This document shows positions 2,428 to 63,906 of a DNA stretch of 64,000 bases, in pieces (position 1 is the first letter of the stretch; every line of letters begins with the position of its first letter). Source of the DNA: Astropecten irregularis. Lineage: Eukaryota > Echinodermata > Asteroidea > Paxillosida > Astropectinidae. The stretch lies in the NCBI GenBank assembly GCA_963971285.1, contig OZ020247.1:16326614-16390613 (forward strand), in the 5' to 3' direction. The notes beneath the pieces were generated by a model. The model was not told the origin of the DNA. It ran no database searches and was given only the letters and a program-made list of their open reading frames with translations. Both the position numbers and the translations under genes were made by a program.

Positions 2428-2817
2428 CAGGGTGTCCCAGAAAAAACAAAACCGAGATTCGTCAGTGTTTAGTCCTATTTTAATTTCACTTTTGAATAAT
2501 AAATGAGACATATCTGGAAAGCGTATTTCCTCAGCTTTCATTTGATACCATTCATATGATCCATACTTCACGCATGAGTGAGTAAAGACAATATGAAGCA
2601 ATGCTATCAAAAAGTTATTTGCACAACGATATTTTTATTTTAAAGAATCAATCACATGTCTAGAAACTACATTTCCTGGCCTTTGAAATGATGCCTCAGT
2701 CAAGAAAAATGAGCAAGGGATGACAGAGATATCTGCCTTTAAAATGGATTGAAAATTCATGTTTTTCAAATCCTTCGTTTATACCTGACCGATTTGTTTG
2801 CATGAATGGATGCGGAT
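2428..2817 (+). repeat. Left long terminal inverted repeat of the transposon
   Basis: This arm pairs with 3039-3445 in inverted orientation. The outer 335 bases match at roughly nine positions in ten by eye, including 'gatgcctcagtcaagaaaaa' and 'gggatgacagagatatctgc'. The inner part, up to 'ggatgcggat', is more diverged and carries small insertions and deletions. Confidence 0.9.
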
Positions 2818-2920
2818 CCATTATGTCCATTAAGAACGTGCGTGTTGAATCCCCTCCCTCCCAATCCTTCCTTCTAGCCCGGATTTATTCACTAAGTCTT
2901 TCTTTTCTATTATTTTTATT

Positions 2921-2999
2921 CACACATGCGTGAAGTATGAATCTCATGAGAGGTATGTAATTGAAGAGGGGGAACTAAGCTTTCTAGATGTATCATTTA
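2921..2999 (+). repeat. Degenerate internal copy of a terminal-repeat segment in the transposon loop
   Basis: The loop segment with 'cacacatgcgtgaagtatga', 'aactaagctttctagatgt' and 'atcattta' resembles 3292-3373 of the right arm ('catgcgtgaagtattgat', 'ataagctttccagaaatgtg', 'tcattta') in the same orientation. It looks like an old internal duplication of arm sequence. Similarity was judged by eye and is clearly lower than between the two arms. Confidence 0.7.
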
Positions 3000-3038
3000 A
3001 TCAAGATTGTTTGATTAATCATAACAAGTTTATTTAAT

Positions 3039-3445
3039 ATCCGCATCCTTTCATGGGAAAAATCGGTTAGGTGTGAAAAAGGATTTGAAAAAAAACAACA
3101 ACACAAAAACAATGAAAATTCAATCCATATTTAAAGGCAGATATCTCTGTCATCCCTTGCTCATTTTTCTTGACTGAGGCATCATCTGAAAGACAAGGAA
3201 ATGTAGTTTCTAGAAATGTGATTAATTCATTAAAATAAAAATATCGTTGTGCAAATTACTTTTTGATAACCTTGCTTCGTATTGTCTTTACTCACCCATG
3301 CGTGAAGTATTGATCATATGAATGGTATCAAATGAAAGCTAAGGAAATAAGCTTTCCAGAAATGTGTCATTTATTATTCAAAAGTGAAATTAAAATAGGT
3401 TTAAACACTGACAAATCTCGGTTTCGTTTTTTCTGGGACACCCTG
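3039..3445 (-). repeat. Right long terminal inverted repeat of the transposon
   Basis: This is the reverse complement of the left arm, from 'atccgcatcc' at 3039 to the terminal 'gggacaccctg'. It carries substitutions relative to the left arm, so the two arms diverged before or after insertion without being homogenised. Confidence 0.9.
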
Positions 3446-8781: not shown

Positions 8782-9208
8782 GATCGTGTTCAAAATATAG
8801 GATTTGAAAAATCCTCATGCGCTTTAACAATGGTCCCATGCACAAAACTATGGACGAAGGTGTGAACTAGACCGAATCTTACTGACTATGACAAACATAA
8901 TCCAGGACCATTTCATGTCACAACTCATTTTTGTCCACGCAGGCTCTACGGGCTTGCCTATAAGCGTGGCATGAGCCAGTCGTCTGGCATAGTCAGTGAC
9001 ATATGGTCAAGCTCCCCACCTTCTTAATATGGTTTGTACATGGGCTCATTGCTAAAGCGCGTTAGGATTTTTTTAAGGGGATGATTACGCTAGGCAGGGC
9101 GACTTCGGTTTCAAAAATTCAGATATATGATCTACACTGAAAATAAAAAGACACGTGTAATTTTGTTTTTCCTGAGTTTGCCCCAGAAATGAGCAGGCAG
9201 ATTCCAAA
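8782..9208. repeat. Long satellite unit, 427-bp form
   Basis: This is the reference copy for the foldback description. It has 'gattacgctaggcagg' after the insert, the tail 'agattccaaag', and an F unit next. The variant 'cacaaaactatgg' is shared only with the L unit at 63480. Confidence 0.95.
8807..9074. repeat. Foldback (palindromic) insert inside the long unit, representative copy
   Basis: The left arm 8807-8944 begins 'aaaaatcctcatgcgcttta'. The right arm 8955-9074, read on the other strand, begins 'aaaaaaatcctaacgcgctt'. The arms pair over most of their length, with shared blocks including 'caatg', 'cccatg', 'acaaacc', 'gaagg', 'tgactatg' and, at the centre, 'ccacgc' with 'aggc'. The outer 85 bases match at about three in four positions, and the right arm lacks about 20 bases near the centre. 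The loop is about 10 bp. The insert has no relation to the normal satellite unit. Foldback or MITE ancestry is inferred; no target duplication is visible. Confidence 0.85.
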
Positions 9209-9869: not shown

Positions 9870-10298
9870 GATCGTGTTCAAAATATAGGATTTGAAAAAT
9901 CCTCATGCGCTTTAACAATGGTCCCATGCACAAACCTATGGACGAAGGTGTGAACTAGACCGAATCTTACTGACTATGACAAACATAATCCAGGACCATT
10001 TCATGTCACAACTCATTTTTGTCCACGCAGGCTCTACGGGCTTGCCTATAAGCGTGGCATGAGCCAGTCGTCTGACATAGTCAGTGACAAAGGGTCAAGC
10101 TCCCCGCCTTCGTAATATGGTTTGTACATGGGCTCATTGCTAAAGCGCGTTAGGATTTTTTTTAAGGGGGATGATTTCGCTACGCAGGGCGACTTCAGTT
10201 TCAAAAATTAAGATCTATGATCTACACTGAAAATAAAAAGAAACGTGTAATTTTGTTTTTCCTGAGTTTGCCCCAGAAATGAGCAGGCAGTTTTCAAA
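9870..10298. repeat. Long satellite unit, 429-bp form
   Basis: It has 'gacaaagggtcaagc' and 'gatttcgctacgcagg', and an A-like tail leading into 'gatcaggttc'. This is the first of three copies of the L-A-B-E block (9870-10956, 11833-12919, 13139-14225). Confidence 0.95.
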
Positions 10299-11832: not shown

Positions 11833-12261
11833 GATCGTGTTCAAAATATAGGATTTGAAAAATCCTCATGCGCTTTAACAATGGTCCCATGCACAAACCT
11901 ATGGACGAAGGTGTGAACTAGACCGAATCTTACTGACTATGACAAACATAATCCAGGACCATTTCATGTCACAACTCATTTTTGTCCACGCAGGCTCTAC
12001 GGGCTTGCCTATAAGCGTGGCATGAGCCAGTCGTCTGACATAGTCAGTGACAAAGGGTCAAGCTCCCCGCCTTCGTAATATGGTTTGTACATGGGCTCAT
12101 TGCTAAAGCGCGTTAGGATTTTTTTTAAGGGGGATGATTTCGCTACGCAGGGCGACTTCAGTTTCAAAAATTAAGATCTATGATCTACACTGAAAATAAA
12201 AAGAAACGTGTAATTTTGTTTTTCCTGAGTTTGCCCCAGAAATGAGCAGGCAGTTTTCAAA
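11833..12261. repeat. Long satellite unit, 429-bp form
   Basis: It is near-identical to the unit at 9870 at an offset of 1963 bp, and begins the second L-A-B-E block. Confidence 0.95.
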
Positions 12262-13138: not shown

Positions 13139-13567
13139 GATCGTGTTCAAAATATAGGATTTGAAAAATCCTCATGCGCTTTAACAATGGTCCCATGCAC
13201 AAACCTATGGACGAAGGTGTGAACTAGACCGAATCTTACTGACTATGACAAACATAATCCAGGACCATTTCATGTCACAACTCATTTTTGTCCACGCAGG
13301 CTCTACGGGCTTGCCTATAAGCGTGGCATGAGCCAGTCGTCTGACATAGTCAGTGACAAAGGGTCAAGCTCCCCGCCTTCGTAATATGGTTTGTACATGG
13401 GCTCATTGCTAAAGCGCGTTAGGATTTTTTTTAAGGGGGATGATTTCGCTACGCAGGGCGACTTCAGTTTCAAAAATTAAGATCTATGATCTACACTGAA
13501 AATAAAAAGAAACGTGTAATTTTGTTTTTCCTGAGTTTGCCCCAGAAATGAGCAGGCAGTTTTCAAA
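13139..13567. repeat. Long satellite unit, 429-bp form
   Basis: Same form as 9870 and 11833, here preceded by an E unit with the 'tttttcccgaattttcc' tail. Confidence 0.95.
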
Positions 13568-15097: not shown

Positions 15098-15526
15098 GAT
15101 CGTGTTCAAAATATAGGATTTGAAAAATCCTCATGCGCTTTAACAATGGTCCCATGCACAAACCTATGGACGAAGGTGTGAACTAGACCGAATCTTACTG
15201 ACTATGACAAACATAATCCAGGACCATTTCATGTCACAACTCATTTTTGTCCACGCAGGCTCTACGGGCTTGCCTATAAGCGTGGCATGAGCCAGTCGTC
15301 TGACATAGTCAGTGACAAAGGGTCAAGCTCCCCGCCTTCGTAATATGGTTTGTACATGGGCACATTGCTAAAGCGCGTTAGGATTTTTTTTAAGGGGGAT
15401 GATTTCGCTACGCAGGGCGACTTCAGTTTCAAAATGTCAGATATATTATCTTCACTGAAAATAAAAAGACACGTGTAATTGTGTTTTTCCTGAATTTTCC
15501 CCAGAAATGAGCAGGCAGTTTTCAAA
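15098..15526. repeat. Long satellite unit, 429-bp form, variant tail
   Basis: Its markers are 'gggcacattgct', 'atgtcagatatattatc' and 'aattgtgtttttcc'. The tail markers also occur in the A unit at 22487. Its copy is at 18358. Confidence 0.95.
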
Positions 15527-16180: not shown

Positions 16181-16609
16181 GATCGTGTTCAAAATATAGG
16201 ATTTAAAAAATCCTCATGCGCTTTAACAATGGTCCCATGCACAAACCTATGGACGAAGGTGTGAACTAGACCGAATCTTACTGACTATGACAAACATAAT
16301 CCAGGACCATTTCATGTCACAACTCATTTTTGTCCACGCAGGCTCTACGGGCTTGCCTATAAGCGTGGCATGAGCCAGTCGTCTGACATAGTCAGTGACA
16401 AAGGGTCAAGCTCCCCGCCTTCGTAATATGGTTTGTACATGGGCTCATTGCTAAAGCGCGTTAGGATTTTTTTTAAGGGGAATGATTTCGCTACGCAGGG
16501 CGACTTCAGTTTCAAAAATTAAGATCTATGATCTACACTGAAAATAAAAAGACACGTGTATTTTTGTTTTTCCCGAATTTTCCCCAGAAATGAGCAGGCA
16601 GTTTTCAAA
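16181..16609. repeat. Long satellite unit, 429-bp form
   Basis: It begins 'ggatttaaaaaatcctc', where other L units have 'ggatttgaaaaatcctc'. It has an E-like tail ('tttttcccgaattttcc'). Confidence 0.95.
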
Positions 16610-17487: not shown

Positions 17488-17917
17488 GATCGTGTTCAAA
17501 ATATAGGATTTGAAAAATCCTCATGCGCTTTAACAATGGTCCCATGCACAAACCTATGGACGAAGGTGTGAACTAGACCGAATCTTACTGACTATGACAA
17601 ACATAATCCAGGACCATTTCATGTCACAACTCATTTTTGTCCACGCAGGCTCTACGGGCTTGCCTATAAGCGTGGCATGAGCCAGTCGTCTGACATAGTC
17701 AGTGACAAAGGGTCAAGCTCCCCGCCTTCGTAATATGGTTTGTACATGGGCTCATTGCTAAAGCGCGTTTAGGATTTTTTTTAAGGGGGATGATTTCGCT
17801 ACGCAGGGCGACTTCAGTTTCAAAAATTAAGATCTATGATCTACACTGAAAATAAAAAGAAACGTGTAATTTTGTTTTTCCTGAGTTTGCCCCAGAAATG
17901 AGCAGGCAGTTTTCAAA
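17488..17917. repeat. Long satellite unit, 430-bp form
   Basis: It has an extra T at the end of the right palindrome arm ('gcgcgtttaggattttt'). The copy at 20748 has the same insertion. Confidence 0.95.
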
Positions 17918-18357: not shown

Positions 18358-18786
18358 GATCGTGTTCAAAATATAGGATTTGAAAAATCCTCATGCGCTT
18401 TAACAATGGTCCCATGCACAAACCTATGGACGAAGGTGTGAACTAGACCGAATCTTACTGACTATGACAAACATAATCCAGGACCATTTCATGTCACAAC
18501 TCATTTTTGTCCACGCAGGCTCTACGGGCTTGCCTATAAGCGTGGCATGAGCCAGTCGTCTGACATAGTCAGTGACAAAGGGTCAAGCTCCCCGCCTTCG
18601 TAATATGGTTTGTACATGGGCACATTGCTAAAGCGCGTTAGGATTTTTTTTAAGGGGGATGATTTCGCTACGCAGGGCGACTTCAGTTTCAAAATGTCAG
18701 ATATATTATCTTCACTGAAAATAAAAAGACACGTGTAATTGTGTTTTTCCTGAATTTTCCCCAGAAATGAGCAGGCAGTTTTCAAA
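18358..18786. repeat. Long satellite unit, 429-bp form, variant tail
   Basis: Copy of the unit at 15098 in the second 3260-bp block, with the same 'gggcacattgct' and 'atgtcagatatattatc' markers. Confidence 0.95.
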
Positions 18787-19440: not shown

Positions 19441-19869
19441 GATCGTGTTCAAAATATAGGATTTAAAAAATCCTCATGCGCTTTAACAATGGTCCCATGC
19501 ACAAACCTATGGACGAAGGTGTGAACTAGACCGAATCTTACTGACTATGACAAACATAATCCAGGACCATTTCATGTCACAACTCATTTTTGTCCACGCA
19601 GGCTCTACGGGCTTGCCTATAAGCGTGGCATGAGCCAGTCGTCTGACATAGTCAGTGACAAAGGGTCAAGCTCCCCGCCTTCGTAATATGGTTTGTACAT
19701 GGGCTCATTGCTAAAGCGCGTTAGGATTTTTTTTAAGGGGGATGATTTCGCTACGCAGGGCGACTTCAGTTTCAAAAATTAAGATCTATGATCTACACTG
19801 AAAATAAAAAGACACGTGTAATTTTGTTTTTCCCGAATTTTCCCCAGAAATGAGCAGGCAGTTTTCAAA
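19441..19869. repeat. Long satellite unit, 429-bp form
   Basis: Copy of the unit at 16181, with the same 'ggatttaaaaaatcctc' start. Confidence 0.95.
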
Positions 19870-20747: not shown

Positions 20748-21177
20748 GATCGTGTTCAAAATATAGGATTTGAAAAATCCTCATGCGCTTTAACAATGGT
20801 CCCATGCACAAACCTATGGACGAAGGTGTGAACTAGACCGAATCTTACTGACTATGACAAACATAATCCAGGACCATTTCATGTCACAACTCATTTTTGT
20901 CCACGCAGGCTCTACGGGCTTGCCTATAAGCGTGGCATGAGCCAGTCGTCTGACATAGTCAGTGACAAAGGGTCAAGCTCCCCGCCTTCGTAATATGGTT
21001 TGTACATGGGCTCATTGCTAAAGCGCGTTTAGGATTTTTTTTAAGGGGGATGATTTCGCTACGCAGGGCGACTTCAGTTTCAAAAATTAAGATCTATGAT
21101 CTACACTGAAAATAAAAAGAAACGTGTAATTTTGTTTTTCCTGAGTTTGCCCCAGAAATGAGCAGGCAGTTTTCAAA
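20748..21177. repeat. Long satellite unit, 430-bp form
   Basis: Copy of the unit at 17488, with the same extra T. Confidence 0.95.
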
Positions 21178-21617: not shown

Positions 21618-22046
21618 GATCGTGTTCAAAATATAGGATTTGAAAAATCCTCATGCGCTTTAACAATGGTCCCATGCACAAACCTATGGACGAAGGTGTG
21701 AACTAAACCGAATCTTACTGACTATGACAAACATAATCCAGGACCATTTCATGTCACAACTCATTTTTGTCCACGCAGGCTCTACGGGCTTGCCTATAAG
21801 CGTGGCATGAGCCAGTCGTCTGACATAGTCAGTGACAAAGGGTCAAGCTCCCCGCCTTCGTAATATGGTTTGTACATGGGCTCATTGCTAAAGCGCGTTA
21901 GGATTTTTTTTAAGGGGGATGATTTCGCTACACAGGGCGACTTCAGTTTCAAAAATTAAGATCTATGATCTACACTGAAAATAAAAAGAAACGTGTAATT
22001 TTGTTTTTCCTGAGTTTGCCCCAGAAATGAGCAGGCAGTTTTCAAA
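21618..22046. repeat. Long satellite unit, 429-bp form
   Basis: It starts like the 18358 copy but has 'gaactaaacc', 'gggctcattgct' and 'gctacacagggc', so the 3260-bp homology ends inside this unit. Confidence 0.95.
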
Positions 22047-23144: not shown

Positions 23145-23419
23145 GATCGTGTTCAAAATATAGGATTTGAAAAATCCTCATGCGCTTTAACAATGGTCCC
23201 ATCAGTGACAAAGGGTCAAGCTCCCCGCCTTCGTAATATGGTTTGTACATGGGCTCATTGCTAAAGCGCGTTAGGATTTTTTTTAAGGGGGATGATTTCG
23301 CTACGCAGGGCGACTTCAGTTTCAAAAATTAAGATCTATGATCTACACTGAAAATAAAAAGAAACGTGTAATTTTGTTTTTCCTGAGTTTGCCCCAGAAA
23401 TGAGCAGGCAGTTTTCAAA
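23145..23419. repeat. Truncated long unit (275 bp)
   Basis: It jumps from 'ggtcccat' to 'cagtgacaaagg', losing about 154 bp. Most of the left palindrome arm and the centre are gone, while the outer right arm remains. The unit can no longer fold back. Confidence 0.93.
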
Positions 23420-31532: not shown

Positions 31533-31959
31533 GATCGTGTTCAAAATATAGGATTTGAAAAATCCTCATGCGCTTTAACAATGGTCCCATGCACAAACCT
31601 ATGGACGAAGGTGTGAACTAGACCGAATCTTACTGACTATGACAAACATAATCCAGGACCATTTCATGTCACAACTCATTTTTGTCCACGCAGGCTATAC
31701 GGGCTTGCATATAAGCGTGGCATGAGCCAGTCGTCTGGCATAGTCAGTGACATATGGTCAAGCTCCCCGCCTTCTTAATATGGTTTGTACATGGGCTCAT
31801 TGCTAAAGCGCGTTAGGATTTTTTTAAGGGGATGATTACGCTAGGCAGGGCGACTTCGGTTTCAAAAATTCAGATCTATGATCTACACTGAAAATAAAAA
31901 GACACGTGTAATTTTGTTTTTCCTGAGTTTGCCCCAGAAATGAGCAGGCAGATTCCAAA
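31533..31959. repeat. Long satellite unit, 427-bp form, 'ctatacggg' subgroup
   Basis: It has 'ggctatacgggcttgcatat' where other L units have 'ggctctacgggcttgcctat'. This marker is confined to the seven 427-bp L units between 31.5 and 48.6 kb. The tail 'agattccaaagatcgtgtt' is followed by an F unit. Confidence 0.95.
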
Positions 31960-35258: not shown

Positions 35259-35687
35259 GATCGTGTTCAAAATATAGGATTTGAAAAATCCTCATGCGCT
35301 TTAACAATGGTCCCATGCACAAACCTATGGACGAAGGTGTGAACTAGACCGAATCTTACTGACTATGACAAACATAATCCAGGACCATTTCATGTCACAA
35401 CTCATTTTTGTCCACGCAGGCTCTACGGGCTTGCCTATAAGCGTGGCATGAGCCAGTCGTCTGACATAGTCAGTGACAAAGGGTCAAGCTCCCCGCCTTC
35501 GTAATATGGTTTGTACATGGGCTCATTGCTAAAGCGCGTTAGGATTTTTTTTAAGGGGGATGATTTCGCTACGCAGGGCGACTTCAGTTTCAAAAATTAA
35601 GATCTATGATCTACACTGAAAATAAAAAGAAACGTGTAATTTTGTTTTTCCTGAGTTTGCCCCAGAAATGAGCAGGCAGTTTTCAAA
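35259..35687. repeat. Long satellite unit, 429-bp form
   Basis: It has 'gacaaagggtc' and 'gctacgcagg', and is followed by 'gatcaggttc'. It is the only 429-bp form between 22 and 52 kb. Confidence 0.95.
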
Positions 35688-37226: not shown

Positions 37227-37653
37227 GATCGTGTTCAAAATATAGGATTTGAAAAATCCTCATGCGCTTTAACAATGGTCCCATGCACAAACCTATGGAC
37301 GAAGGTGTGAACTAGACCGAATCTTACTGACTATGACAAACATAATCCAGGACCATTTCATGTCACAACTCATTTTTGTCCACGCAGGCTATACGGGCTT
37401 GCATATAAGAGTGGCATGAGCCAGTCGTCTGGCATAGTCAGTGACATATGGTCAAGCTCCCCGCCTTCTTAATATGGTTTGTACATGGGCTCATTGCTAA
37501 AGCGCGTTAGGATTTTTTTAAGGGGATGATTACGCTAGGCAGGGCGACTTCGGTTTCAAAAATTCAGATCTATGATCTACACTGAAAATAAAAAGACACG
37601 TATAATTTTGTTTTTCCTGAGTTTGCCCCAGAAATGAGCAGGCAGATTCCAAA
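37227..37653. repeat. Long satellite unit, 427-bp form, 'ctatacggg' subgroup
   Basis: It also has 'catataagagtggc', shared only with the unit at 38967, and 'acacgtataatttt', which breaks the usual CACGTG. Confidence 0.95.
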
Positions 37654-38966: not shown

Positions 38967-39393
38967 GATCGTGTTCAAAATATAGGATTTGAAAAATCCT
39001 CATGCGCTTTAACAATGGTCCCATGCACAAACCTATGGACGAAGGTGTGAACTAGACCGAATCTTACTGACTATGACAAACATAATCCAGGACCATTTCA
39101 TGTCACAACTCATTTTTGTCCACGCAGGCTATACGGGCTTGCATATAAGAGTGGCATGAGCCAGTCGTCTGGCATAGTCAGTGACATATGGTCAAGCTCC
39201 CCGCCTTCTTAATATGGTTTGTACATGGGCTCATTGCTAAAGCGCGTTAGGATTTTTTTAAGGGGATGATTACGCTAGGCAGGGCGACTTCGGTTTCAAA
39301 AATTCAGATCTATGATCTACACTGAAAATAAAAAGACACGTGTAATTTTGTTTTTCCTGAGTTTGCCCCAGAAATGAGCAGGCAGATTCCAAA
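38967..39393. repeat. Long satellite unit, 427-bp form, 'ctatacggg' subgroup
   Basis: Near-copy of 37227 at an offset of 1740 bp, with 'catataagagtggc', but CACGTG is intact here. Confidence 0.95.
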
Positions 39394-41809: not shown

Positions 41810-42236
41810 GATCGTGTTCAAAGTATAGGATTTGAAAAATCCTCATGCGCTTTAACAATGGTCCCATGCACAAACCTATTGACGAAGGTGTGAACTAGAC
41901 CGAATCTTACTGACTATGACAAACATAATCCAGGACCATTTCATGTCACAACTCATTTTTGTCCACGCAGGCTATACGGGCTTGCATATAAGCGTGGCAT
42001 GAGCCAGTCGTCTGGCATAGTCAGTGACATATGGTCAAGCTCCCCGCCTTCTTAATATGGTTTGTACATGGGCTCATTGCTAAAGCGCGTTAGGATTTTT
42101 TTAAGGGGATGATTACGCTAGGCAGGGCGACTTCGGTTTCAAAAATTCAGATCTATGATCTACACTGAAAATAAAAAGACACGTGTAATTTTGTTTTTCC
42201 TGAGTTTGCCCCAGAAATGAGCAGGCAGATTCCAAA
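41810..42236. repeat. Long satellite unit, 427-bp form, 'ctatacggg' subgroup
   Basis: First L unit of the 4592-bp block, with private changes 'caaagtatagg' and 'cctattgacg'. Its tail 'gtgttaaaaatatagg' leads into F. Confidence 0.95.
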
Positions 42237-43558: not shown

Positions 43559-43985
43559 GATCGTGTTCAAAATATAGGATTTGAAAAATCCTCATGCGCT
43601 TTAACAATGGTCCCATGCACAAACCTATGGACGAAGGTGTGAACTAGACCGAATCTTACTGACTATGACAAACATAATCCAGGACCATTTCATGTCACAA
43701 CTCATTTTTGTCCACGCAGGCTATACGGGCTTGCATATAAGCGTGGCATGAGCCAGTCGTCTGGCATAGTCAGTGACATATGGTCAAGCTCCCCGCCTTC
43801 TTAATATGGTTTGCACATGGGCTCATTGCTAAAGCGCGTTAGGATTTTTTTAAGGGGATGATTACGCTAGGCAGGGCGACTTCGGTTTCAAAAATTCAGA
43901 TCTATGATCTACACTGAAAATAAAAAGACACGTGTAATTTTGTTTTTCCTGAGTTTGCCCCAGAAATGAGCAGGCAGATTCCAAA
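43559..43985. repeat. Long satellite unit, 427-bp form, 'ctatacggg' subgroup
   Basis: It has 'ggtttgcacatgg' in the right palindrome arm, shared only with its copy at 48151. Confidence 0.95.
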
Positions 43986-46401: not shown

Positions 46402-46828
46402 GATCGTGTTCAAAATATAGGATTTGAAAAATCCTCATGCGCTTTAACAATGGTCCCATGCACAAACCTATGGACGAAGGTGTGAACTAGACCGAATCTT
46501 ACTGACTATGACAAACATAATCCAGGACCATTTCATGTCACAACTCATTTTTGTCCACGCAGGCTATACGGGCTTGCATATAAGCGTGGCATGAGCCAGT
46601 CGTCTGGCATAGTCAGTGACATATGGTCAAGCTCCCCGCCTTCTTAATATGGTTTGTACATGGGCTCATTGCTAAAGCGCGTTAGGATTTTTTTAAGGGG
46701 ATGATTACGCTAGGCAGGGCGACTTCGGTTTCAAAAATTCAGATCTATGATCTACACTGAAAATAAAAAGACACGTGTAATTTTGTTTTTCCTGAGTTTG
46801 CCCCAGAAATGAGCAGGCAGATTCCAAA
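46402..46828. repeat. Long satellite unit, 427-bp form, 'ctatacggg' subgroup
   Basis: Copy of 41810 at an offset of 4592 bp without the two private changes of that copy. Confidence 0.95.
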
Positions 46829-48150: not shown

Positions 48151-48577
48151 GATCGTGTTCAAAATATAGGATTTGAAAAATCCTCATGCGCTTTAACAAT
48201 GGTCCCATGCACAAACCTATGGACGAAGGTGTGAACTAGACCGAATCTTACTGACTATGACAAACATAATCCAGGACCATTTCATGTCACAACTCATTTT
48301 TGTCCACGCAGGCTATACGGGCTTGCATATAAGCGTGGCATGAGCCAGTCGTCTGGCATAGTCAGTGACATATGGTCAAGCTCCCCGCCTTCTTAATATG
48401 GTTTGCACATGGGCTCATTGCTAAAGCGCGTTAGGATTTTTTTAAGGGGATGATTACGCTAGGCAGGGCGACTTCGGTTTCAAAAATTCAGATCTATGAT
48501 CTACACTGAAAATAAAAAGACACGTGTAATTTTGTTTTTCCTGAGTTTGCCCCAGAAATGAGCAGGCAGATTCCAAA
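48151..48577. repeat. Long satellite unit, 427-bp form, 'ctatacggg' subgroup
   Basis: Copy of 43559 with the same 'ggtttgcacatgg' change. Confidence 0.95.
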
Positions 48578-52749: not shown

Positions 52750-53178
52750 GATCGTGTTCAAAATATAGGATTTGAAAAATCCTCATGCGCTTTAACAATG
52801 GTCCCATGCACAAACCTATGGACGAAGGTGTGAACTAGACCGAATCTTACTGACTATGACAAACATAATCCAGGACCATTTCATGTCACAACTCATTTTT
52901 GTCCACGCAGGCTCTACGGGCTTGTCTATAAGCGTGGCATGAGCCAGTCGTCTGACATAGTCAGTGACAAAGGGTCAAGCTCCCCGCCTTCGTAATATGG
53001 TTTGTACATGGGCTCATTGCTAAAGCGCGTTAGGATTTTTTTTAAGGGGGATGATTTCGCTACGCAGGGCGACTTCAGTTTCAAAAATTAAGATCTATGA
53101 TCTACACTGAAAATAAAAAGAAACGTGTAATTTTGTTTTTCCTGAGTTTGCCCCAGAAATGAGCAGGCAGTTTTCAAA
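52750..53178. repeat. Long satellite unit, 429-bp form
   Basis: It has the private change 'cttgtctataag' next to the palindrome centre. Confidence 0.95.
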
Positions 53179-54495: not shown

Positions 54496-54924
54496 GATCG
54501 TGTTCAAAATATAGGATTTGAAAAATCCTCATGCGCTTTAACAGTGGTCCCATGCACAAACCTATGGACGAAGGTGTGAACTAGACCGAATCTTACTGAC
54601 TATGACAAACATAATCGAGGACCATTTCATGTCACAACTCATTTTTGTCCACGCAGGCTCTACGGGCTTGCCTATAAGCGTGGCATGAGCCAGTCGTCTG
54701 ACATAGTCAGTGACAAAGGGTCAAGCTCCCCGCCTTCGTAATATGGTTTGTACATGGGCTCATTGCTAAAGCGCGTTAGGATTTTTTTTAAGGGGGATGA
54801 TTTCGCTACGCAGGGCGACTTCAGTTTCAAAAATTAAGATCTATGATCTACACTGAAAATTAAAAGAAACGTGTCATTTTGTTTTTCCTGAGTTTGCCCC
54901 AGAAATGAGCAGGCAGTTTTCAAA
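54496..54924. repeat. Long satellite unit, 429-bp form
   Basis: It has 'acagtggtcc', 'aatcgagg' and 'gtgtcattttg', shared only with the copy at 58163. Confidence 0.95.
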
Positions 54925-55976: not shown

Positions 55977-56403
55977 GATCGTGTTCAAAATATAGGATTT
56001 GAAAAATCCTCATGCGCTTTAACAATGGTCCCATGCACAAACCTATGGACGAAGGTGTGAACTAGACCGAATCTTACTGACTATGACAAACATAATCCAG
56101 GACCATTTCATGTCACAACTCATTTTTGTCCACGCAGGCTCTACGGGCTTGCCTATAAGCGTGGCATGAGCCAGTCGTCTGGCATAGTCAGTGACATATG
56201 GTCAAGCTCCCCGCCTTCTTAATATGGTTTGTACATGGGCTCATTGCTAAAGCGCGTTAGGATTTTTTTAAGGGGATGATTACGCTAGGCAGGGCGACTT
56301 CGGTTTCAAAAATTCAGATCTATGATCTACACTGAAAATAAAAAGACACGTGTAATTTTGTTTTTCCTGAGTTTGCCCCAGAAATGAGCAGGCAGATTCC
56401 AAA
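55977..56403. repeat. Long satellite unit, 427-bp form
   Basis: 'ctctacggg' subgroup, preceded by the rare tail 'cagatgtcaaag' and followed by an enlarged F unit. Confidence 0.95.
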
Positions 56404-58162: not shown

Positions 58163-58591
58163 GATCGTGTTCAAAATATAGGATTTGAAAAATCCTCATG
58201 CGCTTTAACAGTGGTCCCATGCACAAACCTATGGACGAAGGTGTGAACTAGACCGAATCTTACTGACTATGACAAACATAATCGAGGACCATTTCATGTC
58301 ACAACTCATTTTTGTCCACGCAGGCTCTACGGGCTTGCCTATAAGCGTGGCATGAGCCAGTCGTCTGACATAGTCAGTGACAAAGGGTCAAGCTCCCCGC
58401 CTTCGTAATATGGTTTGTACATGGGCTCATTGCTAAAGCGCGTTAGGATTTTTTTTAAGGGGGATGATTTCGCTACGCAGGGCGACTTCAGTTTCAAAAA
58501 TTAAGATCTATGATCTACACTGAAAATTAAAAGAAACGTGTCATTTTGTTTTTCCTGAGTTTGCCCCAGAAATGAGCAGGCAGTTTTCAAA
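58163..58591. repeat. Long satellite unit, 429-bp form
   Basis: Copy of 54496 at an offset of 3667 bp. Confidence 0.95.
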
Positions 58592-60347: not shown

Positions 60348-60774
60348 GATCGTGTTCAAAATATAGGATTTGAAAAATCCTCATGCGCTTTAACAATGGT
60401 CCCATGCACAAACCTATGGACGAAGGTGTGAACTAGACCGAATCTTACTGACTATGACAAACATAATCCAGGACCATTTCATGTCACAACTCATTTTTGT
60501 CCACGCAGGCTCTACGGGCTTGCCTATAAGCGTGGCATGAGCCAGTCGTCTGGCATAGTCAGTGACATATGGTCAAGCTCCCCGCCTTCTTAATATGGTT
60601 TGTACATGGGCTCATTGCTAAAGCGCGTTAGGATTTTTTTAAGGGGATGATTACGCTAGGCAGGGCGACTTCGGTTTCAAAAATTCAGATCTATGATCTA
60701 GACTGAAAAAAAAAAGACACGTGTAATTTTGTTTTTCCTGAGTTTGCCCCAGAAATGAGCAGGCAGATTCCAAA
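60348..60774. repeat. Long satellite unit, 427-bp form
   Basis: 'ctctacggg' subgroup. A private change gives 'gatctagactgaaaaaaaaa'. It is followed by F. Confidence 0.95.
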
Positions 60775-61435: not shown

Positions 61436-61726
61436 GATCGTGTTCAAAATATAGGATTTGAAAAATCCTCATGCGCTTTAACAATGGTCCCATGCACAAA
61501 CCTATGGACGAAGGTGTGAACTAGACCGAATCTTACTGACTATGACAAACATAATCCAGGACCATTTCATGTCACAACTCATTTTTGTCCACGCAGGCTC
61601 TACGGGCTTGCCTATAAGCGTGGCATGAGCCAGTCGTCTGACATAGTCTACACTATGAAAATAAAAAGACACGTGTAATTTTGTTTTTCCTGAGTTTGAC
61701 CCAGAAATGAGCAGGCAGATTTCAAA
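61436..61726. repeat. Truncated long unit (291 bp)
   Basis: The left palindrome arm and centre are kept, but at 'gacatagtc' it jumps to 'tacactatgaaaataa', deleting the outer right arm and the start of the conserved half. Two extra bases ('at') sit near the join. The core 'cagggcgacttc' is missing from this unit. Confidence 0.93.
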
Positions 61727-63479: not shown

Positions 63480-63906
63480 GATCGTGTTCAAAATATAGGA
63501 TTTGAAAAATCCTCATGCGCTTTAACAATGGTCCCATGCACAAAACTATGGACGAAGGTGTGAACTAGACCGAATCTTACTGACTATGACAAACATAATC
63601 CAGGACCATTTCATGTCACAACTCATTTTTGTCCACGCAGGCTCTACGGGCTTGCCTATAAGCGTGGCATGAGCCAGTCGTCTGGCATAGTCAGTGACAT
63701 ATGGTCAAGCTCCCCGCCTTCTTAATATGGTTTGTACATGGGCTCATTGCTAAAGCGCGTTAGGATTTTTTTAAGGGGATGATTACGCTAGGCAGGGCGA
63801 CTTCGGTTTCAAAAATTCAGATCTATGATCTACACTGAAAATAAAAAGACACGTGTAATTTTGTTTTTCCTGAGTTTGCCCCAGAAATGAGCAGGCAGAT
63901 TCCAAA
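63480..63906. repeat. Long satellite unit, 427-bp form
   Basis: It shares 'cacaaaactatgg' with the unit at 8782 and is followed by F, so the first and last L-F pairs of the window are closely related. Confidence 0.95.

Follow-up and report, generated by a model that had tools for sequence, protein, structure and literature searches.

The hairpin insert of the long satellite units

The window analysed here is the whole stretch of 64,000 nucleotides at C10:16326614-16390613 of the Astropecten irregularis genome. Its bulk is a 219-bp satellite, 439-bp dimers are found as well, and a tandem-repeat scan listed satellite periods alone. Long (L) units of this satellite carry an additional piece of DNA, exemplified by positions 8807-9074. 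When this piece was used as a blastn query, 29 sites were found in the window and no others, so that normal units gave no match. The insert was complete (1-268) at 26 of the sites, which agrees well with the 29 long units and about 27 hairpins counted in the initial annotation. Mean identity was 98.4% (range 96.6-100%) over the 24 complete copies that aligned without gaps, a mean that omits two complete copies with one additional base.

All copies lie on the minus strand relative to a dispersed reference hairpin (L036). Besides 8807-9074, complete copies are located at 27-294, 9895-10162, 11858-12125, 13164-13431, 15123-15390, 16206-16473, 17513-17781, 18383-18650, 19466-19733, 20773-21041, 21643-21910, 31558-31825, 35284-35551, 37252-37519, 38992-39259, 41835-42102, 43584-43851, 46427-46694, 48176-48443, 52775-53042, 54521-54788, 56002-56269, 58188-58455, 60373-60640, and 63505-63772. 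Part of the hairpin is missing from the three others, at 456-712 (final 11 bases missing), 23170-23283 (large internal deletion), and 61461-61648 (truncated at base 188).

Alignment of the insert to its own reverse complement gave a left arm of 137 bases (8807-8943) and a right arm of 131 bases (8944-9074) without a forced loop, near to the arms of about 138 and 120 bp and the loop of about 10 bp that had been proposed initially. Arm columns were complementary in 94 of 126 cases (75%). The palindrome score was 78, compared to a mean of 9.2 (sd 3.8, maximum 31) in 1000 dinucleotide-preserving shuffles, and the DNA fold of -57.9 kcal/mol (z = -8.16) was not equalled by any of 200 shuffles. The insert is a genuine imperfect palindrome, and the earlier hairpin assignment holds against shuffled sequence.

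At the left junction (8799-8806, plus strand), the satellite sequence 'aggatttg' passes into the element at 'TGAAAAATCC' with a short common TGA. The initial annotation had described the two junctions as 'ggatttga' and 'gatttcgcta', and both are present as described; what has to be added is a run of about 10 bases on the right (9075-9084, plus strand) that is part of neither the palindrome nor the normal unit. These bases precede the return of satellite homology and read AAGGGGATGA here and AGGGGGAGG in L079, a locus with the same trimmed form. Judged by their sequence, they look like a leftover of the flank of a donor element, and AGGGGGAGG is as in the flank of satellite units on C12 and C15 that are described below. 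The right junction of the L unit has little or no common sequence. A TA-CAC end, typical of dispersed copies, is absent from either side of the window unit.

The genome searched comprised 475.7 Mb in 168 contigs. A satellite core motif had 43,530 matches with up to three mismatches and none in the control; if each core match stood for 219 bp, the satellite would amount to some 9.5 Mb, or 2% of the genome. Window-type L units were found on C9, C10, and C12, all devoid of the outer flank and retaining about 9-10 bases of it. The window-type left junction had 835 matches in the genome (up to three mismatches; control 0), a count that includes a third form, which is two bases off the pattern there, and the 100 matches listed lie on C9 and C10. 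This third form was observed at 556-800 and 1446-1691 of L078 (C9, 14.457 Mb), where one side of the hairpin is truncated and satellite sequence restarts at a different place.

The spacing of the inserts recurs within the window. An interval of 3260 bases separates 16206 from 19466, 17513 from 20773, and 18383 from 21643, and an interval of about 4590 bases is repeated in the series 37252, 41835, 46427 and again in 38992, 43584, 48176. These repeated spacings indicate block-wise copying of L units, with the near-identical block spacing of a higher-order repeat. On C12 and C15, hairpins are about 1.0-2.1 kb apart.

Dispersed hairpins and a larger element

The hairpin is also found outside the satellite, on many contigs. 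A search with arm ends that admitted both satellite arms returned 4247 matches, compared to nine in the control, with variants on other contigs. A terminal motif selected against the usual satellite arms had 49 exact matches and none in the control, and at least eight of the 49 are satellite variants (L030, L031, L032, L037, L038, L080, and L081 twice). Even with these set apart, the presence of dispersed copies favours the initial proposal of a MITE or foldback element. A longer end motif had 289 matches (up to three mismatches; control 0); of the 100 listed among them, 84 fall in a tandem array on C1 and 15 in another on C8.

Most dispersed hairpins have company. Among the 30 loci L009-L038, five belong to the 219-bp satellite and 25 do not; 22 of these 25 show larger-element sequence on at least one side, and three consist of the hairpin alone. 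Twelve further loci outside the satellite and the arrays include seven with larger-element sequence (L082-L087 and L090) and five without it (L044, L045, L046, L088, and L089). The hairpin thus adjoins pieces of a larger dispersed element in 29 of the 37 non-satellite, non-array loci read, which are partly non-independent: L009-L012 represent nearly the same stretch of sequence, and L023-L027 and L028/L029 are neighbours on C10.

The dispersed hairpin exceeds the satellite piece in length. Its ends are of the CACTGAAAAAAATCC type and run to CACT(CT)GAAAAA, and in L013, L044, and L036 it measures about 280-290 bases from end to end, with inverted arms. It has the terminal inverted repeats and the dispersal of a miniature inverted-repeat transposable element (MITE), and an absence of coding capacity for a transposase would follow from its length. 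TA is present at both ends in four of the eight hairpin-only loci (TA/CACT...CAGTG/TA), namely L013, L044, L046 (where a run of ATT precedes it), and L089 (whose left end is shortened by two bases). Only one end can be read in L014 and L045, where it has TA; in L088 the readable end has TG instead, and the ends of L015 are unreadable. By its ends, the hairpin fits a TA-target MITE of the Tc1/mariner type, and a transposase of that type would presumably have mobilized it.

Clear ends with target duplications had been anticipated for dispersed copies, and this expectation is borne out in part. TA accompanies the ends in some of the hairpin-only loci as described; it is the sole target-site signal, and may belong to the end motif rather than to a duplication. 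An empty site was not found when the flanks of the larger element were joined and searched in one spelling of the join, which had a single match, with two mismatches (control 0). The matching locus has the right flank without the hairpin, lacks the expected left flank, and so does not establish that the larger element has the hairpin nested within it.

The end motif of the larger element had 11,025 matches in the genome (up to three mismatches; control 0). Comparing this number to the 289 matches of the hairpin end, we infer that a minority of the larger elements carry the hairpin. At C1:33393959-33456237, the larger-element end motif itself forms a tandem array with a period of about 1150. 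The arrangement flank-hairpin-inverted flank was observed at three loci (L021, L039, and L084), where the hairpin stands between two oppositely oriented copies of the left flank and could have served as the pivot of an inverted duplication.

One possibility is that an inverted duplication within the satellite gave rise to the palindrome, which later moved out to other sites. In its favour, single, diverged satellite-like pieces (about 68-77% identity) adjoin dispersed hairpins at two loci, at 1352-1605 of L039 and 2079-2381 of L040. These pieces might also bear on where the satellite itself came from; a reading of the satellite as a part of the larger element is not helped by their orientations, which disagree. 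On the other hand, dispersed copies extend further than the satellite form, up to the TA-CAC end that the latter lacks, and blastn of the insert found no match in the normal units of the window. The dispersed copies are also more diverse and occupy many branches outside the satellite group in a tree rooted at its midpoint, which does not give a direction. An origin within the satellite is thus most improbable, and we favour its capture from the dispersed population.

Probable capture and trimming in the satellite

Satellite units on C12 (L043) and C15 (L080 and L081) contain the hairpin together with larger-element flank, and have satellite on both sides. Their hairpin-flank junction also exists outside the satellite. 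L090, a dispersed tandem dimer on C8, has the junction at the same position as the C12/C15 units, and its two copies align to the C12 insert with 84% identity over 450 columns and 85% over 413 columns, respectively. A G-rich run is found at this junction in the first L090 copy and not in the second. A scan of 15 loci located the hairpin-flank junction in the three satellite loci L043, L080, and L081 and in L090. Pattern matches in L016, L028, and L029 were rejected by eye.

In the C12/C15 form, one arm is missing a part that is still present in the window form, and so the window form is not a direct descendant of it. Rather, the sequences make it look like a trimmed relative. No parent of both the trimmed and the untrimmed form was found among the loci read.

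A tree was calculated from 70 of the 102 distinct hairpins, 27 of the 44 satellite hairpins among them, and rooted at its midpoint. It took eight of the 25 C10 satellite hairpins, four of the 19 hairpins of the C1 array, and all others, after removal of matches that covered less than some 225 query bases. A branch with support of 100/99 separates the 27 satellite rows and the two L090 rows from all other rows, and the dispersed copies are placed on many other branches. Together with the shared junctions, this topology fits what was apparently a single capture by the satellite. The branch that unites the satellite hairpins without L090 has weak support (77/24), so two related captures may have taken place instead.

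It is reasonable to think, with a probability of roughly 80% for the whole account, that the L units arose by capture of a larger element, trimming, and spread within arrays. The hairpin would be the palindromic core of a non-autonomous, TA-bounded DNA transposon (a MITE) that mostly sits beside pieces of the larger dispersed element. From this element, a shortened copy consisting of the hairpin and a piece of the left flank would have ended up in one 219-bp satellite unit. Two deletions would then have removed roughly one third of the satellite unit along with the outer flank, leaving the hairpin and about 10 flank bases, that is, the L unit of the window. Finally, L units would have been copied within larger blocks by unequal exchange or another array process of that kind, a spread that was probably passive. 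The dispersed copies and their ends, the shared junctions, the two forms, the tree, and the block spacing are what is observed; from these we infer the order of the steps and deletion as the mechanism of trimming. The earlier suggestion of a MITE that entered one unit and was then multiplied by array expansion is thus supported by the dispersed copies, the pairing, the partial TA ends, the tree, and the junctions. It has to be corrected in two respects, as the hairpin seems to have arrived attached to a piece of the larger element, and the window unit looks as if it was trimmed later.

Insertion of a solo hairpin MITE straight into a satellite unit would dispense with the larger element, whose pieces in C12 and C15 would then stem from a separate event. 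Solo copies with TA ends do exist, the window unit has no long flank, and the weak support (77/24) for satellite hairpins without L090 would be compatible with separate events. However, the TA-CAC end is missing on both sides of the window unit. The G-rich remnant of the trimmed form (AGGGGGAGG in L079) also follows the hairpin in the C12/C15 units, a longer G-rich run occupies the same junction in one of the L090 copies, and both satellite forms group with L090 at 100/99. Direct insertion is therefore unlikely, and arrival with a piece of the larger element is the reading that we carry forward.

Folding, other arrays, and known systems

It could be argued that the hairpin was retained because its folding is useful, for instance as a centromeric dyad or a replication barrier. 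The abundance of the satellite (43,530 core matches) would be in keeping with such a role, as would the position of its arrays, which among the matches listed are mid-contig on C9, C10, and C12 and less so on C15. Overall pairing speaks otherwise. Mean palindrome identity was 0.788 in 36 dispersed copies and 0.747 in 25 C10 satellite copies. Other window-type copies had 0.755 (three on C10), 0.764 (two on C12), and 0.800 (two on C9), the last slightly above the dispersed mean, although overall pairing in the satellite does not exceed that of dispersed copies. Identity dropped to about 0.69 in ten C12/C15 copies and to 0.676 in two copies of the third form, and the C1 and C8 arrays had 0.737 and 0.740, respectively. 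Variable sites among 24 window copies were somewhat rarer at paired (9 of 188) than at unpaired positions (8 of 80), a difference that is not significant (chi-square of about 2.6, calculated by hand). Neither palindrome identity by group nor this comparison of variable sites gave a clear sign of selection for pairing. Moreover, arrays on C12, on C15, and one on C9 have lost much of one arm and persist as arrays, which argues against a need for folding, and part of the hairpin is gone from three of the 29 window copies. The CENP-B box motif had no match in the 12 sequences scanned. Retention for the sake of folding is thus quite improbable, and passive spread of the captured hairpin is preferred.

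The hairpin family is also present in two arrays that are built differently. One, at 19.35-19.45 Mb of C1, has a period of 1211; in the three loci checked, its unit does not match the 219-bp satellite and contains a 72-bp repeat about three times. The other, at 5.87 Mb of C8, has units of mostly 1.13-1.18 kb that are composed of pieces of the larger element. In topology tests, for which the groups were defined after viewing the tree, a single group of satellite (without L090) and C1 hairpins was rejected (p-AU 0.00046). Groupings of satellite with C8 (p-AU 0.053) and of C1 with C8 (p-AU 0.065) were both borderline and retained. The differing make-up of the units is a stronger argument for separate amplification than these tests.

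The occurrence of one hairpin family in the 219-bp satellite, the C1 array, the C8 array, and local dimers raises the idea that the palindromic core or its carrier repeatedly starts or feeds tandem amplification. This idea is weakened by the units with damaged arms that are still arrayed, and we hold it only tentatively, with chances well below even. If it were true, foldback DNA would act as a seed of new satellites in the genome of Astropecten irregularis. The presence of one family in differently built arrays makes foldback-promoted tandem amplification testable.

Capture and amplification of a transposon hairpin by a satellite is a known process, and the interest of the present case is in its visible stages and its recurrence. 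In Messor ants, the MITE-like element IRE-130 is described in multiple copies inside satellite DNA, along with the mariner element Mboumar, which duplicates TA on insertion (PMC2581405). The hairpin described here is similar in kind, being a short MITE-like element with many copies within a satellite. As far as the cited description goes, it differs from IRE-130 in that one can still see the hairpin in trimmed as well as untrimmed form, in a dispersed relative that shares the junction, and in additional arrays. IRE-130 is moreover associated with a mariner element there, whereas the transposase of the present hairpin is putative.

In Drosophila virilis, the foldback element Tetris is tied to the TIR-220 satellite, with units of about 220 bp (PMC4079207). 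Both cases combine a foldback-like non-autonomous element with satellite-like arrays of about 220-bp units, and long inverted arms are seen here, although for tandem repeats inside the arms, which a Tetris-like element would have, the scan of the window listed satellite periods alone. In what is reported of Tetris the satellite repeat comes from tandem repeats in the arms of the element, whereas here a hairpin was added to some units of a satellite that has no match to it. In Xenopus, miDNA4 is a Tc1/mariner MITE with an internal satellite, Xstir likewise combines MITE and tandem repeat, and microhomology-related internal deletions were proposed for miDNA4 (PMC12628747). A MITE and a tandem repeat are joined in these cases as well; in the Xenopus elements, as described in that source, the tandem repeat is internal to the MITE or derived from it, whereas here the core of a MITE lies within a satellite unit. 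Models for MITE-derived satellites are in print in the same source (PMC12628747).

How transposons and satellites are connected is often deduced from end products only. Here, one genome appears to hold a relative of the donor, the untrimmed form, the trimmed form, and block-wise spread, and this joint preservation of stages makes the order of the steps testable.

The window contains one further insertion. At 2428-3445, one satellite unit harbours a single inverted-repeat element of 1 kb, which has CAGGGTGTCCCAGAAAAA at its ends. Its arms of about 390-410 bases align with 360 identities, 28 mismatches, and 23 gaps, and its flanks fit a TA duplication. An end of the same kind, CAGGGTGTCCCAG, adjoins the lone satellite-like piece of L040, near base 2430 of that locus (C9, about 13.3164 Mb).
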